From contig JAHBMJ010000204.1 in the NCBI GenBank assembly GCA_018398765.1, forward strand, positions 5,001-32,500: DNA of 27,500 bases, read 5' to 3'. The notes below the pieces were generated by a model. That model was not told the origin of the DNA, did no database searches, and saw only the letters and a program-made list of their open reading frames with translations. A program made the translations under genes and the position numbers. Origin of the DNA: Chromera velia. Its lineage: Eukaryota; Sar; Chromeraceae. Positions 2,929 to 25,380 of this stretch are shown here, one piece after another (the first letter of the stretch is position 1; every line of letters starts with the position of its first letter).

Positions 2929-5642
2929 CCGGCGTTGCCTGCCGTGGCTGTATATCATTACATTTTTTTTAAAAAAAAGTTATATACATAGTTTTTAAAC
3001 TCTTCTAATTTTTTGAATATTCAAAAGACATTCCTGAACCTAACTACCACTTAAAAGTTCAAGCCACATTTTTTTATAAGCTTGAAAGTCCGCACCGCAG
3101 GCGTGGATCATTTATGGTATCTTGAAAGCCAAAGCCGCATATCTGAATGGTGTGTTAACCATCTACACCGCAGACGTAGACAGTCTCTTGAAAAACGATG
3201 TTGCAGATAGAGATCATCTTGATTTTATTTTTTCAAGTGGCACTTAGGTTCAGGCAGGTAATTCAAAAAAATCAATCAATTATTCAATCGGTCAGAACCT
3301 AGGTCGAGACTCAAGGCAATTTTTAGCTAAATTTTTAGAGTTACAAGCAATCTATTAAAACCTACATCAAAAGCTTCTAAACCCTCAACCTCGACCACTT
3401 ATGAGCTCTCCATGTCTTCCCACAACCTTGCTTTTTCCGTTAGAAGCGGCTGATCGTCACTCCTTCTATCCGAGTGCTACCGCTGCCGCTGTCCCTCCCT
3501 CAATGCTTACTCTTCACACCTCTCCCCTGGTGCTCCGCAGGCACCTGCTGGCTACTTTGTAGTACGCTGCCTGCATTTTTGCCTTCATGTATGCGCACAC
3601 TTGCCCGTATGTCTTATCCTACTTCAGACTCACAAGATGCAAAGAAAAATTTTTTAAAACGGTCTCCAACACTCAAACGGTCTCCGGAAATATTCAATGC
3701 CTAAATATTTTTTATAGTGTTACAACGTAATTAAAGTTAATTTAAAATGATATTTACGTCCTTAAATCATTGTTAAACAACTTAAAAGCAAGACTTTTTC
3801 CTTAAATTGATGATTTGGAACAGATTTTTTTTTTTTTGAAAAAATATTTTTTTAATTATAACGAGGGAGTAATAGTTTTGTTATGTTAACTTTAAGTAAC
3901 TTATAAGTTTTAAAAAAAGTTATGTATACAATAAATAGGAATTACAATTAAATTGTATAAATTAGAATATAGTAAATTAGCTACTAAATGAAAAATAAAG
4001 AGAAAAAAATAGTACACATCTTCTTTAGGAACATCTCGATGTCCTTTTCGAGGGCCCTATCTACACTGCTGGCGAGGGGTAAAACTGTTTTTATAGAGTA
4101 AATGAAGATATGGGACCTACTGTGGGACCATTGACGGGAGTTTAGTATACCTTTCTAAGTTGGCTGCATGCTAGGTTTGCTTATATATATACTAAAAACG
4201 TATATGCTCTCTGAGAGTCTAACATCAAACATTAAAGTATATTTAAATTATGATTAAACGCTTTGAACGGGCCGATTTGGATGCTGTATGATGATGATGG
4301 ACCCATTGATAGTGGATTTTAAGTTTAACCAAAACTTTGAATCAAAGTACCAATTTACTACTACTAAATATCCGAAGTTGATTCTCAAGCTATCAAATCA
4401 ATTTTAATTATTAATATAATTATACTACTTTAACAGCAGTTTCAATCTGTATTATCGTAAATAATACTAGATCTAGTTATGATCGAAGGGGGGGGGGGCA
4501 TTTAAGCTATGTTCCTAGCACGTCCGGCTTGTTAATATATAAAACAACTCTCCACACTTCCTATGCAGCATTGCAACACACCATTACACATGCAAGGTGA
4601 CGCAACATTACAATACATGTGTCATAACTCTTAAAACAGTTTCATATAATATTGTAATACATGGTTATACTCTTATTCTATGGCTGCGTCTGTGGCTTTC
4701 TTACTAGCTTTAATTCTTACTTAAATTCTTATGAGTTATATATCACGAGTACACCTAGTAGCTAGCCTGGTAGTGAAGAAAACTTATAAAAATAACTAAG
4801 TCTTAATCCATCCTGGACTCCCCGGACCTGGAGTCTACTGGAGTCTATCTTTTATCTATATTTTGGATTGATTGATTTATTATAACTGAATCTAGTAACT
4901 GATTGATTATAAATCTTAGATGTACCCATAGTATATATACAAAAACTCTTTGAAAATTCAACTCATTCTTTTAATTATTTCTATCCATTTTCACGACCTA
5001 TATGCAACCTGACGGAATTCAATAAAAACATTGGAGGTCATATCAAAAGCTTCCTTACCTATGTACATCAACTTGAACCGTATTTTCACAATATGAAAAG
5101 AAAAAAATATAACCCTAGCTCCTGCATCACTAGCTTAAACAAATTTTGTCCAGTCACTGCAGCAGAGCGACAACTTTTTCGTGGTCACCTAGGTAGTCAC
5201 ACGCTCTGGCATTGTGAAGGGGGGTGCACCCGCTCTGCAAGCAACAACCGTGTGGAACCAATGTATGAAACCTGTCCCATATCTGTACGTATTCACGATA
5301 TTATGCATGCACAGCAGACCTAAATAGAGCTATTACATGATCTAAATGACCCTATGCTTCTGCTCTTTTCTACACCGACTGCAGAAAGAGGAGCACATGT
5401 GTCTTCTGCCACATCTGCCGGCTCATGCATTTATCTTCATACAAAAAAAGAAAAAGAATTCTGTATATGAATAAATGCAAAAAATCTTTAGCCACATCTG
5501 CCGGCTCAAAAAGTTAAACAGGATCATGAACAGATAGGGACACTCCAGAGTCCAAACCGAAAAAAAGTCTCTGCTCAGTCAACCAGCCACAAAATAGGAT
5601 CGGGGCACGGAAAGGAACTGGATAAAAAAGAAGAAAACTCAC

Positions 5643-7440
5643 TTTGGTTGCCTTGTCCTTATCCGCCCCTGCCGTAACAAGGATCGAAACGACCGCATCG
5701 TGGCCTCCAGAAGCGGCGATGTAGAGCAGTGTCTCCCCATACTGCAGCAGCAAAAAGATATCATCCATCAGGCTGACAATTTTTGAAATCGAAACACTGT
5801 GAGCACATCGCAAAGAGATTAAAGGAAGAAGAACACGAAGTACCACTGTCACCCGATGCAATCTGTTGACTGTCCGTTTAATCTATCAACAATTCATGGA
5901 AGGACCGAGAAACTCTGAAAAAGAAATGAACAATATCTCACATACTTCAAACGATACAATTCAGAATAGTAGAATCAGAGGTGCAGAATACAGGTACGCG
6001 TCGAGAAAGAATAACGGAAAGAGAAAAAAAAGGAGACTCAAGTCGTCTGCTTCATCCTTATCCACCCCCTGATCTGCCCCTGCCTCAAGCAGGATCAATA
6101 CTACGGTACCATGGCCACACTTAGCTGCGATGTAGAGCGGAGTTTTCCCTGACTGCATGCATGAAAAAAAAGTATTATCCATGGAAAAGAACATAAAAAG
6201 ACACCGCACAGCCTAAAGTGAAAAAAGGTCTCTGCTTAGTCAAGCAGCCACAAAATGGCATCGGGGCACGGAAGGGAACTGGATAAAGAAGAAAAAAACT
6301 CACTTCGGTTGCCTTGTCCTTATCCACCCCTGCCGCAACAAGGATCGAAACGACCGTATCGTAGCCTCTAAAAGCGGTGACGTAGAACGGCGTTGACCCA
6401 CTCTGTAGCAGCAAAAAGACAATGTCATCATCGGTCAGGCTGACAAATCGAAACACTGCAGGCATACTGTAAAACAATTGGTGAAAAATTGGAGAGGGCA
6501 TGCCAGTGTTACCCGACGCAATGTGCTGACTATCTGTTCGATCCATCAGCAATTAATTGAAAGACCAAGGAACTCTGATAAAGAAATGAACAAGATCTCA
6601 CATACTTCAAACGATAAAATTCAGAATAGCAGAATCAGAGATGCAGAATATAGGTACGCGTCGAGAAAGAACAAGGGAAAGAGGAAAAAGAGGACTCATA
6701 TTGGTTGCCTTGTTCTGATCCGCCCCTGCCTCAAGCAGGATCGACACTACGGTGCCGAGGCCATGCTTAGCTACGATGTAGAGCGGAGTTGCCCCTGACT
6801 GCATGCATAAAAAAAGTGTTATCCACCAAGAGGAACAGAAAAAGACACCTAAGAGCCCAAATAAAAAAAAAGTTTCTGTTCAGTCAATCAGTCATAGACT
6901 GGAATCGGGGCATAGAAAGAAACTGGATGAAGAAAAAGAAGACTCACTTCGGTTGCTTTGTCCTTATCCGCCCCTGCCGCAAGCAGGATCGATACGACTG
7001 TATCGTGGCCTCTAAAAGCGGCGGTATAGAGGGGCTTGCGCCCAGTCTGCAACAGTAAAACGGGATCATCGGTCAGGCTGACAAATTGAAACACTGCAGG
7101 CACACTTCAAAAAAATCGAAGGAAATTTGGAGAGGATGTGCCAGTGTCACCCGACGCAATCTGCTGACTGTTTGTTCGATCCATCAGCAATTCAGGAAAG
7201 GACCGAGGAACTCTGACAAAGAAATAAACAACATCTCACATACTGTAAACGATAAAAATGAGAACAGCAGAATCAAAGATGCAAAATACAGGTACGTGAC
7301 GAGAAAGAACAGTTAAGGGGAAGAGGAAAAAAAAGACTCACGTCGTCTGCCTGGTCCTTCTCCGCCCCTGCTTCAAGAAGCAGCGAAACGGTAGTATCGC
7401 AGCCATAAAAGGCTGCAGTGAAGAGTGGCGACTGCCCATC
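5643..7440 (-). CDS. Ankyrin-repeat gene fragment: six single-repeat exons (possibly decaying)
   Basis: Six minus-strand exons each encode one ankyrin repeat: 7440-7342, 7046-6948, 6798-6700, 6402-6304, 6152-6042 and 5741-5643. Five are exactly 99 nt (33 codons); the fifth is 111 nt with a 4-codon insertion. All are read in phase 0, so they can be joined without breaking frame. Each shows the family core TPLYxAA..G..TVVSILL.AGAD. Ankyrin repeats mediate protein-protein contacts; no partner can be inferred. Exons alternate between two types (type 1 with LLEAGADQ, type 2 with AAGADKDKAT), and introns alternate 295, 149, 297, 151, 300 nt. Defects: the third and fifth exons have ATGAGT and TTGAGT where the others have GTGAGT donors, and the first lacks a clean AG acceptor at the repeat boundary (CAA instead of CAG; an upstream CAG at about 7493 would extend the exon). 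No start codon exon or certain 3' exon was found. It may be the middle of a longer ankyrin gene or a partly dead tandem array. Confidence 0.72.
5643..7440 (-). repeat. Three tandem copies of a ~645-bp two-exon unit
   Basis: Equivalent exon ends are spaced 642 and 646 bp (type 1) and 644 and 661 bp (type 2). Intron sequence is also conserved between units: the stretch around 5880-6010 recurs near 6545-6670 and 7190-7310 with few changes, and the intron following the type-2 exon is similarly repeated. Conservation of non-coding DNA shows that whole genomic segments were duplicated recently, rather than ancient repeats being retained by selection. Confidence 0.85.
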
Positions 7441-11232: not shown

Positions 11233-11751
11233 ATGGCAGCTCTCCCAAGCCAACCAGGAGTTCCGCTACTCCGGTCCGTTGACGTTCTCTTTGACCTTGC
11301 CGAAAAGGGTGTCTGGGCATTTCTCCATGTCGGTCGGTTGAAGGAGTTTGTCTGTAGAGGAGAACAAATTGTCCACCGCCAGCAACTGCAGAAAGATCAC
11401 CCAGAGCTCTTCTGGCAAAAGGACCAGGGGAGGGACCTCGTAATCCACGCACTCTCCTACCCCTGGTTGAGCAAGGACCACCCAGACCCCCACGGAATCA
11501 TCACAGAAAGAATCTGCAAATTCCAGGGCCTCAAAGACAAAAGTGCGTCCAGAGTGCACGCAGTCTGCATCAATGAACCTGCTGCCTCCGCACGCAAGCG
11601 TTCGTGCGTGCGTCAGGCGAAGCTGCTGCTGAGCTGAAAGAAAGATGCGAATGGTGAAACCAAAAACAGGAAGCATTGAACTCTGCGTGCATCTCCGTCC
11701 ACATATGTCCACCTATCTCATTGCGTGTAGCTTCTCACTTGGACCTCTCTT

Positions 11752-11787
<36 letters not shown>

Positions 11788-14700
11788 TTCCCCGCCCCCC
11801 TCTGTCTTTTTTTTGCTCCCTCTCTCTCTATGTGGGTGTGCATGTGTGCATGCGTGCATTTTCTGTCTGTATGTGTGAATAATCCATACATTATGGAGAC
11901 ACGTGGCCGCGCTACACAGAGGGATGTCTGGTTTAATTCCCCTCTTTCGACCGACACGCACGGTTTTCTTTCTCTTTCTTTTTCTCTCTCTTTGCCTTTG
12001 TGCAAACACGCCAACCGACGCCCCTTCTTGCCTTCATTCACCCTGCCTGAATGGATCGACGAGCAGCTCTACTGTTTTGGGACTTCGCGTCCCTCCACCA
12101 GCACCCCCCAGGACGGGAGAGGACGGAGGAGGAGACGCTACTCTTCCACGAGGCCCTTCAGTCCCTCCCTCTCCTCTACGGGAACCAGCACCCTCAGGTC
12201 AGATCGGTCGGCCCGGGAGCAGACATGGATGGCATGGTGCATGCGGCTGTTGCCATCCATCCATGCAGGTGCAGAAGCCGGCCACGCAATGAATGATCCA
12301 CTGTATGTTCGATCGAATCAAACAAAAAGGTCCCAAAACATCGAATTCCTTCCTTCCCTCCTCCCTTCCATCCTCTTCTGCCAGATCGGATCGGATCAGA
12401 GGGTCATGCGCCCTCAATGCGAGGATCATTGGATGTGCCCTGCATGGCCACAGCTTATCTGTCAATATATGCATGCCACCCATGCAGATCTCTCTCTCAT
12501 GCAGCAGCACCTCAACCCAAGCATGACGTTCAATGGAGCTAGGTACATTTAACTATTTTTGTCTTCTCTCTCTCGATGTTTACATATATATGTGCCTTTC
12601 ACGCCGCTTCATGCCTGCACTCGATCAGGTGGTCTTTCTGAGATGCACTGCCGGACCCTCAGAAACAAAAACAGCGGAGACGGGAGGAAACACGCGGCCC
12701 TACTGGTTTCGTGGGTGGTCAGTCAGTCGGTGCGTGCATGTGAACACTCGAGTGCATGCATGGTGCGCATGTGAAGTGAGAGCAGATCAGGCTATCCGTC
12801 TTATATCGTCCTTTCTTCGGGGTAGTCAGCATGCCTCGGGCGTCAATTGAATTAAGTGTTCGCGGACCGCCAGCTGACTGCCATTCTGACTGCATGCTGT
12901 CTGGCCAGGGGTTTTGAAGAATGGGTGTAGGGAAGGACAAGAAGAAACTTTCTGTCTCTTTGTCAATCAATTTCTCTGTCTCTTCGCCGTTCAAGAGAAG
13001 GAAAGGAGAGCCTGTCTGCGTGCTTGTCTTTCTGTGAATATGTGTATTTCTCTGTCTGTCTGTTAGTCTATTTGTCTGTGTGTAGGTCTATTCTTCTGCT
13101 TCTGTATGTGTGGGTTTGAAGGTAATGTCCGTTTTCTTTTTTTTGGTGAGCGAGTGTAGGAGATAAGGGCGAAACCTCACCCAGATACGCACCGACAAGG
13201 GTGAACAAATCAATAAACAAACGAATCAGCGATCAAACAAAAACTACGCACATGTAGTTCTGTTTTCTGTCTGCAAGCAGGTGCACATTCGAGTCGTTTG
13301 TTGCCAATGGCAAGGGCAACCACTTTTTCATTCTGGATGTAGACACGGAGTCCGGTACTGAGGGCCCAGAGGCCCAAAATGAAAATAGGAATTTGGAAAC
13401 CGAGAAGCCCTCTGTGCAGGTCCGAAAGGCTCAGGCCAAAATTCCCAGAGCGCCCGCGGACTTTCGAAAGTGCGTCAGAAGAGATCAGATCAAATCACAA
13501 GAGATCAGATTGTCTTCCTTCCTGCGTGGCCTGTCTGCCTCTCTGCCTGTCTGCCTGTCTGCCTGTCTTCCTGTCTGCCTGTCTGCAGCTGTCCGGTTTG
13601 ACAATGAGTCAACAGAAAGGGAAGGGAAGGAAAGAAACGAAAAGAACTTATCGTCTGTCAGTCTACCTGTGTGCCTGCATGTGTGTTCGCATGTCAACAC
13701 ATCTTTGTCCGCACGCGGCTTCTTCACCGAGACAGTTGCACCGCTGGTTCCTTTCCTGAGCTCCCATCCTCCCCATCTGCCTCCCTCCGCCCCTCCCTCC
13801 CTGAAATTAAGATTTCTTCTCCCTCCCTGAAATCAAGATTTCTTCAAGCGCATGCATCGAGATATTTCCCTAGCTTAATTCTTCCCCCGCATGCAGGCTG
13901 CTTGAGGAGAAGGAGCAAGGAGAGAGCGGCCTCCCGGTGATAGCTTTCACGAACGCCTCTGATTGCAGCAGAGTAGCTGACCTCTACGAAGCATATGCTC
14001 GACTCTTCGTAAAGTCTCTGAAGGAACTGCGACTCGAGACGGTCTCTCTGAAGGGAGAGGGTGCTGCGTCTTTCCTCGCTTCTTTTCTGTCCTTTGTTGC
14101 AGACTGCCTGGAAGAAGAAGCAGGAGAGCTGATCAATCAGGAAGAAGTCGCAGGAGCAGTGCGAAAGGGAAAATCCAAAAGAAAGCCAAAATACGCTTCT
14201 CTTAAAAAAGCTCCAGCAATTCCCAGACCGTCACGACCGCCGTCCTTCGGTCTCTCTAAGATTGTTCTTTTCGGCACTGGTTTGACAGACAGAGAGCTGA
14301 CCGAGCTAACCCCTGCCTTCTGCCGACTGTCCTCTCTGACCTCTCTTCACCTATCCAACAACGAGGACCTGACCTCAGAGGGCGTGACCGCACTGGCCGA
14401 CGCCCTCTCCCGGCACCCCGGAGTCGAGGTTCCCCTAGAGCTGCTGGACCTGTCCTGGTCCCCCCAGGTATGTATGTCTAGCTGTCGGCCGAGCTTCCTT
14501 CCTTCCTTCCTTCCTTCCTTGTTGGATCGATATGATCGGAATGCTTTGTGTATTCATTTGATTTTGTGAGAACAGATTCTTCTCCAACACACACACGCTG
14601 CACCTCTCCAGTTCAACTGTTTGCATGTCTCTAGCTCTCAACATGTCCGTATTGCAGTGCTGCATTGAATTATTCCAACGTGACGTTCGGCTCGAGTCCT

Positions 14701-15169
14701 TTCATGCGGCCGCAATGCAATGCAGCCCCCCTCTTGGCGTCGTTACCCACCCTTCTTGAAACGTGTTTCCCACTCCGCCATTCATTTTTTCTGCACGGCG
14801 CACACAGCTAGGAGACATTCCGTGCACATCGATAAATCGGTAAAAGCATGGCCTTTCGGACCGGCTCATGCAAATTACCCACGAACTAAAGTGGGCCGGG
14901 ACACAATGACTTTCGTTCACACACTGCATGTGGATGGTGTCCGATCCTTAGACTGGTTTTGTGTCCCTGCAACGCCCTGGCTGCAGGTGGATGACCGGTG
15001 CGTGGAGGCGCTGGCTCGGTGGGCAGCTGGGAGGCACAGACGTGGAGTGAAAGTCTGGATGGACAAGAGTGAGGGGAACAGCCTGTATGTTGAGGGAACG
15101 GGAATCACAGACAAGGGGGAACGTCTGTTTGCAGACACACTCAAACACGAACTCAATCAAGCTATTTAA
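11233..15169 (+). CDS. WDFASLHQ/RGWCTFES-domain protein with C-terminal leucine-rich repeats
   Basis: Six exons join in frame with standard GT-AG sites: 11233-11542, 12067-12197, 12629-12717, 13281-13469, 13897-14467 and 14987-15169 (TAA at 15167). The product is 490 aa. ATG 11233 is the first Met after an in-frame TAG at 11149. Residues ~1-240 carry ordered motifs split over exons: HALSYPWLSKDHPDP (~74-88), LLFWDFASLHQ (~105-115), RTEEE..LFHEALQSLPLLYG, VVFLRC (~148), RPYWFRGWCTFESF across the exon 3/4 junction (~170-183), then PRAPADFR and AFTNASDCSRVADLY. I recall this W-D-[FY]-S-x-x-Q / R-G-W-x-x-F-E pattern from predicted proteins of algae, alveolates and oomycetes; I know no established function. 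Residues ~335-460 contain ribonuclease-inhibitor-like LRRs (LTSLHLSNNEDLTSEGVTAL, LELLDLSWSP). A K/R-rich linker lies at about 305-325. The LRR likely binds a ligand or protein. Every phase matches at all five junctions, so the structure is strong; the function is unknown. Confidence 0.82.
11752..11783. repeat. (CT)n microsatellite in intron 1 of the domain-LRR gene
   Basis: About sixteen CT units in the first intron (11543-12066). Confidence 0.9.
13530..13587. repeat. CTGC/CTGT tetranucleotide tract in intron 4
   Basis: Degenerate CTGCCTGT units inside the intron between exons 4 and 5 of the domain-LRR gene. Confidence 0.85.
14494..14520. repeat. (CCTT)n tract just after exon 5
   Basis: Tetranucleotide run starting about 26 bp downstream of the donor CAG|GTATGT at 14467/14468. 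Confidence 0.85.
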
Positions 15170-19437: not shown

Positions 19438-20322
19438 GCAAACGGACATGAGAATGGGAAACAAGCCATTGTCAGTCGAGGGTCGGAGAGCGACCGAATG
19501 CAATGCGGAAAGGGGGGTCATTACTGACAAAATTTGAAAGAACCAGAAAATAGGAAGGGAACAATCTTTGAAAGCGCTTTCTTCTTCCTCGTGTACAGGC
19601 AAAATGCACTTACTTGTACACACACACACACACACAGACGTAAGGCCAGAGCCAGACTGACTCCCAAGAAACCAAATCTTATCCTACCTGGATGGATGGA
19701 TGACGCAAGAACCAAAACCCACGCATGTTGTACCGACTCACCCACCCACCTACCTGTTGTAGAACATGTACAGTTGGGGGATGAGTGCCAGTGCGAGCAT
19801 CGTATCGTCGAAGCACTCGTACAGAGAGTACAAAGTCGGCAGGCGTGTTCGACGGAAGATGAACAACGGTATCGTGATCACGAACGCGACGAAATACAAA
19901 AAGAACGCGTACACCTTTTTGCCGAGGTTATTGGGAAGAACCCGACAGAATTTCAATCCAAATGTGTCCCGGTCCTTTTCATAACTGCTGTAATACTTTG
20001 TGAAGATGTGGTACCACGAGAAGAATGAGAGGATCGACGTTGAAACGTCACAGATCCAAAATGCCAAACCCAAGCTGAAGTTATACGTCCACGCCAAAAT
20101 CACTTGAAGGACGACGTTGTTGAACTCTGAGAGGAAAAGAGCGAACAGAGACTGCAGGGAGATCCCAGCCGCAGACCGATCCTTCTTGACCTTCCAAATG
20201 ATGATCACGTACCCCAAAAACCAGAAGAGTGCAGTCCCATAATTCATCATGTCGTGCACCCACTCGTAGCTGTCCATGTGCGCATGGAGCGACTGCAGCT
20301 GTGCTTGCGTGTCGTCCGCCAT
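17822..20322 (-). CDS. ERD2/KDEL-receptor-related seven-helix membrane protein
   Basis: Three exons on the minus strand: 20322-19754, 18575-18495 and 17975-17822 (stop TGA at 17824-17822). Phases match at both junctions (AG|G = Arg190, TG|G = Trp217), giving 267 aa from ATG 20322. About seven hydrophobic helices are visible (~30-45, 56-77, 83-106, 135-156, 173-187, 198-218, 238-257). Family landmarks in order: SAAGISLQSLFAL (50-62), YEKDRDTFGLKF (114-125), ALIPQLYMF (179-187), GHF..LLFIARL (200-211) and DFLYYYLVAAVKGEK..ALPL at the C-terminus, which parallels the DFFYLYxTKVLKGKKLSLP end of true receptors. True ERD2 binds H/KDEL-tailed proteins in the Golgi and returns them to the ER. This protein is longer at the N-terminus (~25 extra residues) and resembles the ERD2-related proteins of plants more than ERD2 itself; several ligand-binding positions are changed, so retrieval activity is doubtful. 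Intron 1 (1178 nt) is filled with microsatellites. It is transcribed divergently from the kinesin gene. Confidence 0.88.
18120..18142. repeat. (GA)n tract in intron 2 of the ERD2-like gene
   Basis: Dinucleotide run within the 519-nt second intron (17976-18494). Confidence 0.85.
18590..18643. repeat. (CA)n(GA)n tract abutting a splice acceptor
   Basis: Read on the minus (coding) strand this is (CT)n then (GT)n, ending just before the acceptor GTGCAG|GCGG at 18576/18575. The microsatellite therefore stands where the polypyrimidine tract is expected. Confidence 0.85.
18845..19028. repeat. Higher-order (CAAT)n satellite with TTTTAAT spacers
   Basis: Runs of CAAT are punctuated by the sequence CAATTTTAAT and by CCAT variants, giving a nested repeat of about 180 bp inside intron 1 of the ERD2-like gene. 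Confidence 0.9.
19405..19437. repeat. (CAGA)n microsatellite
   Basis: About eight CAGA units in intron 1 of the ERD2-like gene; a related degenerate tract lies at 19262-19285. Confidence 0.9.
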
Positions 20323-21324
20323 TTTCGGAGCGAGCTGAACGTCGAGACTATCTAACGGCTTCCTTCCACTTTATTTTTTGGGCACGAGGACTGCTCTTGC
20401 TTTCAACCACCACAAATCGATCTGAAAGCAGACTGAAAGCAACAAGCGCAACGCGCAAGCCACTGCCAGAAGCGTCCAGTCAGCTGGATCTCTACCACTC
20501 GGAACTACGAGCAATCGCTACTGCGTTCCGTGCAACTGTTCTGAGTGTTGCTTGGCGACGACTCAACCTTTGTGTTGAGCTGAAGGTAACACGATTTGGA
20601 TTTGCGGTTACGTACGAAGACAACATGTGCGGAACCTATGAAGTCACAAGGAAAAGGGCTCGGTATAACGTCACTGCTTAGTACCAGCTGACGCAAACCC
20701 AGAATCTTACAGAGTATATATTCAATTCAATTCGTGCGTGAATTTGGCTAGCTCATGCTAGCTCATGCAGGATCATGCAGGGTCGACAATGGGTCGACAT
20801 GCAGTTTTTGGCGGCGGGCCACGCGCGCGTGACTCGATCCGGACTCGATCCGGTGCGTGGCTGTGGGCGCGCCGCATCTCAGGCGCACCTGGCATGCTGC
20901 ATGTATTAATTGACTACTTTGCATGTATGTGTGAAAAAAACTTCATGTATATATAGTAACTTGAAATAAAAACATATGTATATAATCGACGCGTACCAGC
21001 GCAGGACGAATTCAAATAGGAATCTACAGGCAGAGAATTGCACAGAGACTTCCAGCAGCGCGAGGGGAAAAGTGCCGTCACTTCAAGAAAGCCGAGCTTG
21101 AAAGTTCAGCAAACAACAGTTGTCGACTCGACTGTCTCTGTCAGAAAGGTAGCATTGTACGTATCAATTTCTTCAGCCGTCCGACCTGTCGAGCAGACCA
21201 ATCGGAGAGAGTTGCAGCATCTTACATGATCTGTTGACACACGTGCCATTCTCTCAGTCACCCAAATGACATGATAACTCTCCGTGTTCACGTTGCTAGG
21301 CATTCGTTCAGTTGATATTGCAAC
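20323..21324. promoter_or_regulatory. Divergent intergenic region between ERD2-like and kinesin genes
   Basis: The two ATGs (20322, minus; 21325, plus) face away from each other, so both promoters should lie here. Candidate sites: a TATATA-containing stretch at 20714-20720, GCTCATGC and GATCATGC repeats at 20751-20780, GGGTCGACA twice (20780-20800), GACTCGATCCGG twice in tandem (20831-20853) and a second TATATA stretch at 20949-20954. No coding exon is supported. Transcription starts cannot be placed from sequence alone. Confidence 0.45.
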
Positions 21325-23200
21325 ATGCAACCAGAATCCCAGCAGGAGAATCATGTTGTGTGTGTGCGAGTGCGGCCATTTATGCACAATGAGAGCTCAC
21401 AGGATCCTTGTGTGCGCTTTATGTCCCAGACAATCATCAAGGTAAGGCTTCCTGCTGGAAGGAAGGTGCGGTGTACGTTTCGAAACAAAGATCATACAAA
21501 CAGAAAAAAACACATGCAAGTTGAGACGAGCTCTGAATCTTGCTCCAGAAGTGTCCATATGGAGTGAGCAGAGAGGGGATGGCACCGTGAGAGTCGTGTG
21601 ACGGAATGGAAGAGGAAAGAGGAGAGGGCCTTTGCCTTTCAATTGCGTTTGCATGTACGGAACATAGACATGCGGCGTGTTGCCCTGCTCGACAAGTGCA
21701 CAAAGATTGTGGGAAATGCTTCCGTCTTCCAGTGAAAGGCACAAATGGTGTACCACATGTGCTCCTACGAGTATTTTTGTGTTTCTGCGTCGTTTTCAGT
21801 CTAGTGCATTGCCGTTGCTGAAATGCTGTCGCTTCAGGTCTGGGACGCGGACGAGTCGAAGTACCAACCTGAAAGACACAGTATCAAATTACACATTATC
21901 ATAGATTGAAGATAAATTTTCTGCATACACTGGTGTTGCAGTACTGTAATGCGAAGAACTCAAAGGACCAAAAGGACCAGAGCCGCGATTTCGCTTTCGA
22001 TCGAGTCTTCTGGTTCGTTTATGTGTCTTCATTGCCATCCCTTCCCTTCCCTCTGCATGCCCCCTCCCCTCTCTTCTCCGATGCGGTCTACTCCCTTTCT
22101 CCTGCAGCCTGCTTATGGTACTTCTGTCATTCGAAACAAATGGAGGCATTTCTGTTTGGCGATCGTCTGCTGTCTGTCTCCCCGTCCATCATTGTATTTC
22201 TACCTCAGGAGACACCGTATCGAAATTGCTCATGTTTCCTCGTGCTTATCGGATCACGTGTCACATCGGATCACGTGTCTCGGACTGGTTCGCTCTTTGA
22301 TTTTGAATCTCAATATTCATGCATCCATCTCACTGCTCTGGCTTGCCTGCCTGCCTGCAGGTCTGTACCTGGAACCGCCGGAGGGTTCGCAGGACAGAGG
22401 GATGTCTTTCACCTTCTCGGAAAGAGAGCGCTTGTGAATGCGTGGAAGGGCTTCAATGGGTGCATCTTCGCGTACGGCCAGACGGGAAGTGGGAAGAGTC
22501 ATTCGATGATCGGCACGGGGGATGACGCTGGCTTGAGTGAGTGAGTGAGTGAGTGAGTGAGTGAGTGGGTGGGGGTGTCCGTTGATTGTGAAGCTGTTTT
22601 TTCCAGGGGTAGGAAGAAAAGAGGAGGGAGGTTACGAAGCCACAATGGAGAAAAGCATTTTTCTTTGATGAAGTCCAACAGAAAATTTCTCTCCTTCCTT
22701 CCTTCCTTCCTTCCTTCCTTCCTTCCTTCCTTCCTTCCTTCCGTCCTTCCTTCCGTCCGTCCTTCTTTTCTTTCTATCTTCTTCGTTCTGTAGAAAAGTA
22801 GGAAGATTCAATCTCTGGTCCCTTCACATCCTTCTGTTCATGTTTTGTGAGGAAGTTCCACCGAGCTGCGAGAGAAAGGCGGTCGATGAATGCACGATTG
22901 AATAATTGCATGCCCCCCGTTCCTGTGCATGAACGAACGCCTGCAGTGCCCCGCGTCTGCCGAAAGTTGTTCATGCTCATCGAGGCGTCAAAAAGGAGAT
23001 CGCGTGCCAACACCCTGACAGGCAGCCAATCGGCAAACGGGAGGCGGGTCTCTGTTGGTGAGATCTCAACACCCCAAGCGAATTCGCGTATGGGCATGGC
23101 CGTGCAGAGGCTGAACACAGAAAAACTCGATGAGATCCTGGCGGAGGATGAGGGTCGGTAGGCACGGGGGGTGGTGGGTGGATGAGTGCGCGGCTCTTAG

Positions 23201-23247
<47 letters not shown>

Positions 23248-25380
23248 GCGCGGGGGGGGGGACAATATCGTGAATCGTGTGGCACAAAAGTCCCATTTCT
23301 TCCTGTTTACCTTTGTTTCTTTCTTCCTTTCTTTCTCTCTGTCAGTCTATCTGAAGATGAGAAATAATAAAGCTGTCTCTCTCTCTATCTGTCTGTCTGT
23401 CTGTGTGAAGGAGCGGAAGAAATCATATAGCCTGCCTGTCTCTCTGTCTTCCTGTCTGTCTTGGCTTGTTTGAGTACTTTGCTTTTCAATCTGTAAGTCG
23501 CTTGGAGTTTCTTTGCTCGAAACAGAACCCGATTTCTGTGACTTCGCGAGATTGCGCAGGTATGCAAAGTCACAATTTTCGGTCAAGTGCCGCCGGAGGA
23601 AATTTGAATCCGCCAAGGCAGCAAGTAGGCGGGTTGAACCTCTTTGACATGACTGCTGCCGGAGGAACGTCACCCGGAATGAACGGAATGAATGATTTGA
23701 ACGCAAGCGAGAACGACGAGAGCGGAAACGCAGAAGGCACTTCGGTGAGTCAGTTGAACCCACACTTTTTCTTTTCTTCGTCTTTTTCTTCTTCTTCTTC
23801 TTCTTCTTCTTCTTCTGCATCTGGTCCGTCTTTCCTTTATCCTTGCTTGTTCTGCCTTTCCGGGGTGATGCGGATGTGAAGGAACGGGACTGGGGGCGAT
23901 AGTCATCGACAGAATTCATAAAAGCTCATCTGCCTGCGTCCTCCTGGCGGCTCCATCAAGCGGTCGGCAGAGAACGTGCCAGTGAAGTCTTTTCATCCAT
24001 TGTGGGTCCTCTCTGGTTCTCGTGCAATCAAAAGAAAAGTCCTGTATGCTTGTTGTATGAACATTTATTTTCGCAGGAAAATTCCATTCGGGTGTTTCTG
24101 TCCTTTATCGAGCTCTACAACGAAAAGGCCTATGACCTCCTCACTCCCCCGGATGGCGAGAACAGAACCCTGTCGGCTGGCGCAAAGGTCGTTTTCGAGC
24201 AAGGAAAAGGAAAAATTAGACAAAAAGAGTGACAGGCAAAATGATTCTCGAGAGAGAGAGACGAGGGCAGAGTAAAGCAGCCCAAGAAGGCCACAAGTAA
24301 TTCAAGAATGCATTCTCCAGAAAAGAAATAGGGGGTCGCAATGTGTTTCAAAGAAAAGAAAACGACAGAGAGCTCATGCACAGGGAGGGCCCAGAATGGG
24401 GATGTAGATTTCATTCATTGACTTTTTGCTCTCGAATCATGTTTCGCTTCTGTGCCCTCAGTTCAGTCCCCTAAGAAAAGTGTCTTCCTTCCTCTTACTG
24501 TTGTCGTCATTGCGTTCCGTTTCTCTTTTTCATTTCTGCATGGAGGTTTGCATGATGACCCTGCGCACCGCCGTTGATTCATTCCTGTTTGTACCTAGTA
24601 CGACATTGGACAACTTCATTGAGACTCGCTCGCTTTTCCTGCATAAGAGCGATGTATGTGATAAATGGAACGTTTTTGTCGCTGGCTTTTTCTCTTCCCT
24701 GCAGGGAGGGGGGCCTGGAGTGGGGCTCTTGAAGGAGGTCGCCATCCGGCAGCATCCCTCTCTTGGTGTCATTCTAGGTGGGGCCAACACTCCCGAGGTA
24801 GACTCTGTGGAGGACCTGAACACTTACCTCAACTACGGGATGAAGAACAGGACCGTGGCGGCAACTCGGAACAACGCACGGTCTTCGAGGTCCCATGCTA
24901 TCTTCACCATCTACCTTTGCAGGTGGGTAGGTAGTAGTAGGTAAGTAGTGCGCAGAGTGAAGGTGAAAGCTCAGTGGGAAAACCCACAGAAACCATGAAG
25001 TTGGAACAAACGCAAAGACAGCATCATGCGTGGACGATTCCTGTTTGACTGCAAAGAGGGGTACGTGGATGTTTCGGTTTTGGTTAATTGGGCTTTGTGG
25101 GCCAAGGGCAGGACCGTAAGTGTTAAGAAAGGCCGGCATGAAATGCAAAAAAGGGAATGAATGTCATGAAGGGAGACATGATTAAGCACAAGCTCTGCAC
25201 AGCAAGCAAATGATCAGATCATGTCAAGGGGGTCCACGAGTTTTGCTTGGGTCTCATCTTTTCAGCCTTTATAAGCAGACGAAGGCCTCATGACGATTCA
25301 TTCTGGGTCTTAGGATCGTTCTTTCTCGCCCATCTTGACATGTGAGTAGGTGTGTGTATCTTTGTGCTTGTCTGAGAACT

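Follow-up and report, generated by a model that had tools for sequence, protein, structure and literature searches.

A spliced gene of Chromera velia joins a conserved domain, probably related to HET and TIR, to leucine-rich repeats

What kind of protein results when a conserved domain that no curated family describes is joined to leucine-rich repeats (LRRs)? This question is posed by a locus of Chromera velia on contig JAHBMJ010000204.1, within a 27,500-nucleotide stretch (positions 5,001 to 32,500; G000:C203:5001-32500) that we refer to as the window and that belongs to a eukaryote-type assembly whose 4040 contigs total 177.8 Mb. At window positions 11233-15169 on the forward strand lies one six-exon gene, the exons of which join in frame to encode a protein of 490 amino acids. 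Sequence comparison suggests that this gene probably couples a divergent domain of the HET/TIR superfamily (residues ~60-290) to a repeat sensor formed by the C-terminal LRRs, and that it would act in the manner proposed below. HET and TIR domains are used by fungi, plants and animals in cell death and immunity.

The gene model was drawn by eye and with the help of homology, and all introns run from GT to AG. The four motifs by which an initial annotation had recognised the N-terminal domain are all found in this single spliced gene, the last of them interrupted by an intron:

11233..11542, forward strand: exon 1, encoding the N-terminal segment with the first motif, aligned to HET SYxWG and TIR box 1
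11455-11490, forward strand: first motif, SYPWLSKDHPDP (residues 75-86)
11543..12066, forward strand: intron 1 (GT..AG), CT-rich in one stretch
12067..12197, forward strand: exon 2, with FWDFASLHQ (aligned with HET WIDALCINQ and TIR box 2), RTEEE and LPLLYGN (aligned with HET MxxIYxxA)
12075-12101, forward strand: FWDFASLHQ (residues 107-115)
12120-12134, forward strand: RTEEE (residues 122-126)
12629..12717, forward strand: exon 3, VVFLRC segment and beginning of RGWCTFES
12710-13296, forward strand: RGWCTFES (residues 175-182), crossing intron 3, which cuts the Trp codon
13281..13469, forward strand: exon 4, remainder of RGWCTFES, then linker
13291..13293, forward strand: codon of E181 (W177 + 4), the candidate catalytic glutamate, present in 25 of 25 aligned rows
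13470..13896, forward strand: intron 4; its simple repeats of the CTGTCTGC type at 13511-13593 have matches at many genomic sites
13897..14467, forward strand: exon 5, family-conserved FTNASD...LYEAY block and LRR (LRR_6, residues 385-407)
14987..15169, forward strand: exon 6, final LRR-like segment, C-terminus and stop codon (15167-15169)

The start methionine is backed by a comparable start in paralog L010 (piece L010:1230-1508). Single-exon paralogs read through junctions 1-4 without a break in frame, and a single L010 frame, reading LDLSFCPQVDDTFL, covers junction 5 (exon 5/6); the acceptor of exon 2 is uncertain by one residue. By E-value, no paralog is closer than L010 (G000:C1359:594-4073; 45% in the domain), which has the identical order of domain and LRRs, in pieces separated by stops that reflect either introns or decay. 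In a second paralog, L086, the domain and LRR-like repeats (recognised by eye) are contained in one 708-codon frame. The exon joins rest on sequence and homology, and one could also imagine two neighbouring genes, one coding for the domain and one for the LRRs. We consider this arrangement extremely improbable, because the join between exons 4 and 5 is in frame and because both halves occur together in L010 and L086. The locus has 141 further rows of DNA matches; these are simple repeats in introns 1, 3 and 4, and we can rule out that they are gene copies.

The initial description, a domain of enzyme or signalling type joined to LRRs much as in sensor proteins, was borne out. LRR_6 matches residues 385-407 (E 1.3e-5) with 25.3 bits, which exceeds the Pfam cut-off of 23.4 and places the window protein among the LRR proteins; the other LRRs are recognised by eye only. 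A second Pfam candidate, STAS_2, was rejected (15.2 bits against a cut-off of 29.2). Like fungal HET-NACHT-WD40 proteins and NLR receptors, the window protein joins an effector-type domain to superstructure-forming repeats. Unlike these proteins, it has no Pfam match to a NACHT or NB-ARC module in its 490 residues, the only matches being LRR_6 and the sub-threshold STAS_2. Across the genome, NACHT gave four matches at E <= 0.01, one of them above cut-off and none on contigs that carry the family (this genome-wide search covered NACHT, not NB-ARC).

Conservation of the N-terminal domain was assessed in 25 rows, comprising the window gene and 24 of the 27 fetched paralog loci; L010, L017 and L023 were omitted on account of stops or introns. 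S75, W78, F107, D109, S112, Q115, G176 and E181 are identical in all rows, and W108, R122, R175 and W177 in 24. The invariant glutamate E181 stands four residues after W177 (W+4). Downstream of the domain follows a conserved FTNG..D..V..LY block, in which F257, T258 and N259 are each found in 23 of 25 rows. The family as a whole is divergent, with 9 of 17 members 26-37% identical to L012.

To which family does this domain belong? As the initial annotation had supposed, no scanned library of curated families covers it: we found no credible match in Pfam, NCBIfam, PADLOC or PDB sequences. The HET profile (PF06985) matched neither the window protein nor any of 18 family members at E up to 10, and TIR (PF01582/PF13676) was absent from the Pfam matches of the same proteins. 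At E up to 1, the HET profile had no match in the whole genome and none of 14 control genomes was positive in this search, but fungal-type contigs yielded 41 matches to it. By curated thresholds, the domain is a member of neither the HET nor the TIR family. Relatives among eukaryotes were sought in this one genome. Three DNA-pattern scans, two of viral contigs and one of genome contigs, matched 29, 44 and 52 stretches, none of which was confirmed by tblastn, and no relative of the domain was matched by tblastn in phages and plasmids. The HET motif had no match in viral contigs, and a W.D..CIDQ-type motif of other protists had no exact match in this genome.

The order of the motifs, SYxW - FWDxxSLxQ - LY - RGWxxFE, resembled that of the HET domain, and we therefore compared the two families directly. 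HET genes were fetched with the motif W.DALCINQ (10 loci, of which 8 lie in a fungal-type bin labelled Deltaproteobacteria) and with the HET profile in that bin (41 matches, 30 loci); 30 segments were aligned, and the 25 with less than 50% gaps were used. This bin (G001, "Deltaproteobacteria bacterium CPC1"; L039, L040, L042, L043, L045-L048) probably represents fungal contamination of a bacterial genome. The best local hhalign alignment of the untrimmed profiles scores 22.7 (P 0.02, probability 2.4%) and spans 75 columns and motifs 1-3, in which SYPWLS stands opposite SYVWGP, FWDFASLHQ opposite WIDALCINQ and LPLLYGN opposite MGSIYSH; 1 of 400 column permutations matched or exceeded this score. 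With the family-specific inserts cut, the core alignment extends over 106 columns and holds all four motifs in register (score 30.1, P 7.8e-5). None of 1000 permutations reached this score, and the reversed profile gave 13.7. Trimming of the query alone afforded a score of 33.3, and two real-protein controls gave 11.9-16.7.

The low probability of the untrimmed alignment and the lack of any curated model that recognises the domain would suit an unrelated alpha/beta family, the likeness of which to HET and TIR arose by convergence on strand-loop patterns. Such convergence is improbable in our judgement, given that the four motifs are collinear and in register, that permutations so rarely attain the observed scores and that the real-protein controls score lower. 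The order shared with fungal HET (PF06985; HET-E, TOL, HET-6) can be written as SYxW - [F/W]xDxx[S/C]xxQ - xxx[I/L]Y - RxWxxxE, and 18 of the 25 aligned HET rows have the glutamate at W+4, as have 19 of the full set of 30 segments, which includes several truncated ones. Fungal HET domains likewise form large families inside one genome; they also occur with repeat arrays (PMC4986451). In contrast to fungal HET, the present family escapes the Pfam model, adds HPDP after the first motif, reads FWD in place of WID, contains the conserved downstream FTNG...LY block, and is combined with LRRs or ankyrins without NACHT.

The similarity to TIR is weak. Against a profile of 12 TIR sequences (10 bacterial, 2 from this genome; L094 and L098 of 12 fetched loci excluded), the family scored 20.4 untrimmed (1 of 200 permutations) and 18.0 as core (2 of 200), compared to 16.7 and 15.6 for an ankyrin control. 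The core alignment places the first motif opposite box 1 and the second opposite box 2. Fungal HET scored 16.4 and 15.0 against the same TIRs (7 and 9 of 200 permutations), and by these scores the family stands at least as close to TIR as HET does. A box-1-like SY, a box-2-like WD and a glutamate at W+4 may be features in common with TIR domains (PF01582, PF13676; SARM1, plant TIR-NLRs, ThsB); the weakness of the profile similarity, the lack of a Pfam match and the presence of separate TIR-like genes in the same genome set the family apart. One of these genes, L079 (G000:C643), contains a TIR domain above cut-off (PF01582, E 8e-7) with an ankyrin-rich frame downstream, a layout that parallels the combination of HET-like domain and ankyrins in the family; the other, L080 (G000:C3505), remains below cut-offs. 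The comparison with HET and TIR that had been suggested at the outset was well chosen, since the family aligns with fungal HET motif by motif, in unchanged order, and with TIR weakly. Because of these profile scores, we place the family in or beside the HET/TIR superfamily.

The domain does not stand alone: in addition to its probable superfamily ties, it recurs in the genome. A search with the domain as query gave 89 rows at E <= 0.01, which merge within 4 kb into 79 places, 67 of them at E <= 1e-5; together with the 89 rows of a second search, for which L034 served as query, the count rises to 84. These numbers include the window gene and are lower bounds. The initial annotation had proposed a tally of partner domains. 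LRRs are the partner in the window gene; among the paralogs, ankyrin repeats are commoner than LRRs detected by Pfam, being present in 17 of 28 scanned paralog open reading frames (ORFs; 14 of 20 and 3 of 8 in two sets). This tally refers to single ORFs in short loci, with L010, L017, L023, L025 and L083 left out, and is not random, as the ankyrin-less L081, L082 and L084-L086 were chosen for resembling the window gene in layout. Pfam detects an LRR in only one of the 28 ORFs, L034, which combines ankyrins with an LRR_6 match below cut-off (E 3.7e-4); in the group of L086 and L081-L085, LRRs were recognised by eye, and the five members scanned had no Pfam LRR match. Concerted repeat evolution is a feature of fungal HET-NACHT-WD40 genes; we do not claim it for the ankyrin repeats of this family, in which mean internal repeat identity ranges from 0.25 to 0.60 and is mostly low (15 ORFs).

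Many paralogs have long single-exon frames and the window gene has five introns. This difference could point to a retro-expanded or mobile-element-linked family without an immune role, in which single-exon copies were retroposed from an ancestor that had introns, as the window gene does. We deem this origin quite improbable, as many frames are open across 400-1100 codons and retain the motif residues.

How might such a protein work? The catalytic glutamate of TIR NADases is located at W+4, a position that we take to be equivalent to that of E181. Since most of the HET rows have a glutamate there too, we propose a model of sensing, assembly and NAD+ cleavage. Its observed basis consists of the domain-LRR fusion, the order and conservation of the motifs, the family size and the lack of a Pfam NOD module; the fold of this protein, chemistry, oligomerisation, ligand and biological role are what we infer. 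The LRRs, or the ankyrin arrays of many paralogs, would bind a ligand or partner and hold the domain idle. Upon binding, several domains would gather, and the assembled domain may act as TIR domains do, either by cleaving NAD+ or by forming an NAD- or nucleotide-derived messenger in a pocket that includes E181. The product would then elicit a stress, defence or cell-death response. As the protein has no match to a nucleotide-binding oligomerisation module and NACHT is absent from the family contigs, assembly would have to be driven directly by the repeats instead of by an NLR switch.

Animal receptor TIRs are mostly adaptors. The domain could accordingly be a non-enzymatic relative of the HET/TIR fold that gathers partners by homotypic contacts, the LRR or ankyrin repeats serving as docking sites. 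Both repeat types are compatible with scaffolding, and an adaptor role has been proposed for HET (PMC4986451). We regard this role as possible but rather doubtful, because E181, D109, Q115 and S75 are invariant despite the divergence of the family, which fits a pocket better than a docking surface alone. The preferred model of NAD+ cleavage is also in line with the fungal literature. In fungi, cell death is induced by the HET domain, the mechanism being described as unknown (PMC10890737), TIR-like NAD+ chemistry has been proposed for it (PMC10890737, PMC10197012, PMC12881547), and fungal members of the superfamily function in incompatibility and cell death (PMC4986451, PMC10197012, PMC12881547).

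The window contains further genes. Kinesin motor exons are found at 22380-24941 on the forward strand (PF00225, E 1.6e-13 for 22380-22541 and 6.6e-12 for 24750-24941), and a frame for an ER lumen protein retaining receptor at 19753-20370 on the reverse strand (PF00810, E 1.2e-9). Between 5517 and 7106 on the reverse strand, three short frames (5517-5882, 5964-6212, 6891-7106) contain one ankyrin repeat each and perhaps belong to one gene with a repeat per exon.

A limited literature search on Chromera, Vitrella, chromerids, dinoflagellates, algae and protists, which did not extend to paywalled papers or InterPro, returned no paper that names the family. In the main text of the chromerid genome paper (PMC4501334), ankyrin, HET, leucine-rich and TIR are all absent as whole words, and PMC6652019 and PMC4083563 added nothing on the family. 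It is in fungi that HET-like domains are best documented, with their working still open (PMC10890737, PMC10197012). Homologs outside fungi have been described from stramenopiles, haptophytes, choanoflagellates, green algae and bryophytes (PMC4986451).

As a HET/TIR-related family that carries the W+4 glutamate and scores against TIR at least as high as fungal HET, the family could bridge the link between HET and TIR, and it could help to test whether HET-type domains cleave NAD+. A more far-reaching reading, which we advance tentatively and with some doubt, sees in these genes an NLR-free recognition repertoire of about 80 members: a new NAD+-cleaving HET/TIR clade wired straight to ankyrin or LRR sensors in a photosynthetic relative of malaria parasites, and an independent parallel to the incompatibility systems of fungi and the TIR-NLRs of plants. 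Should the family indeed serve as a recognition repertoire, such a repertoire would exist in a lineage that adjoins the Apicomplexa.
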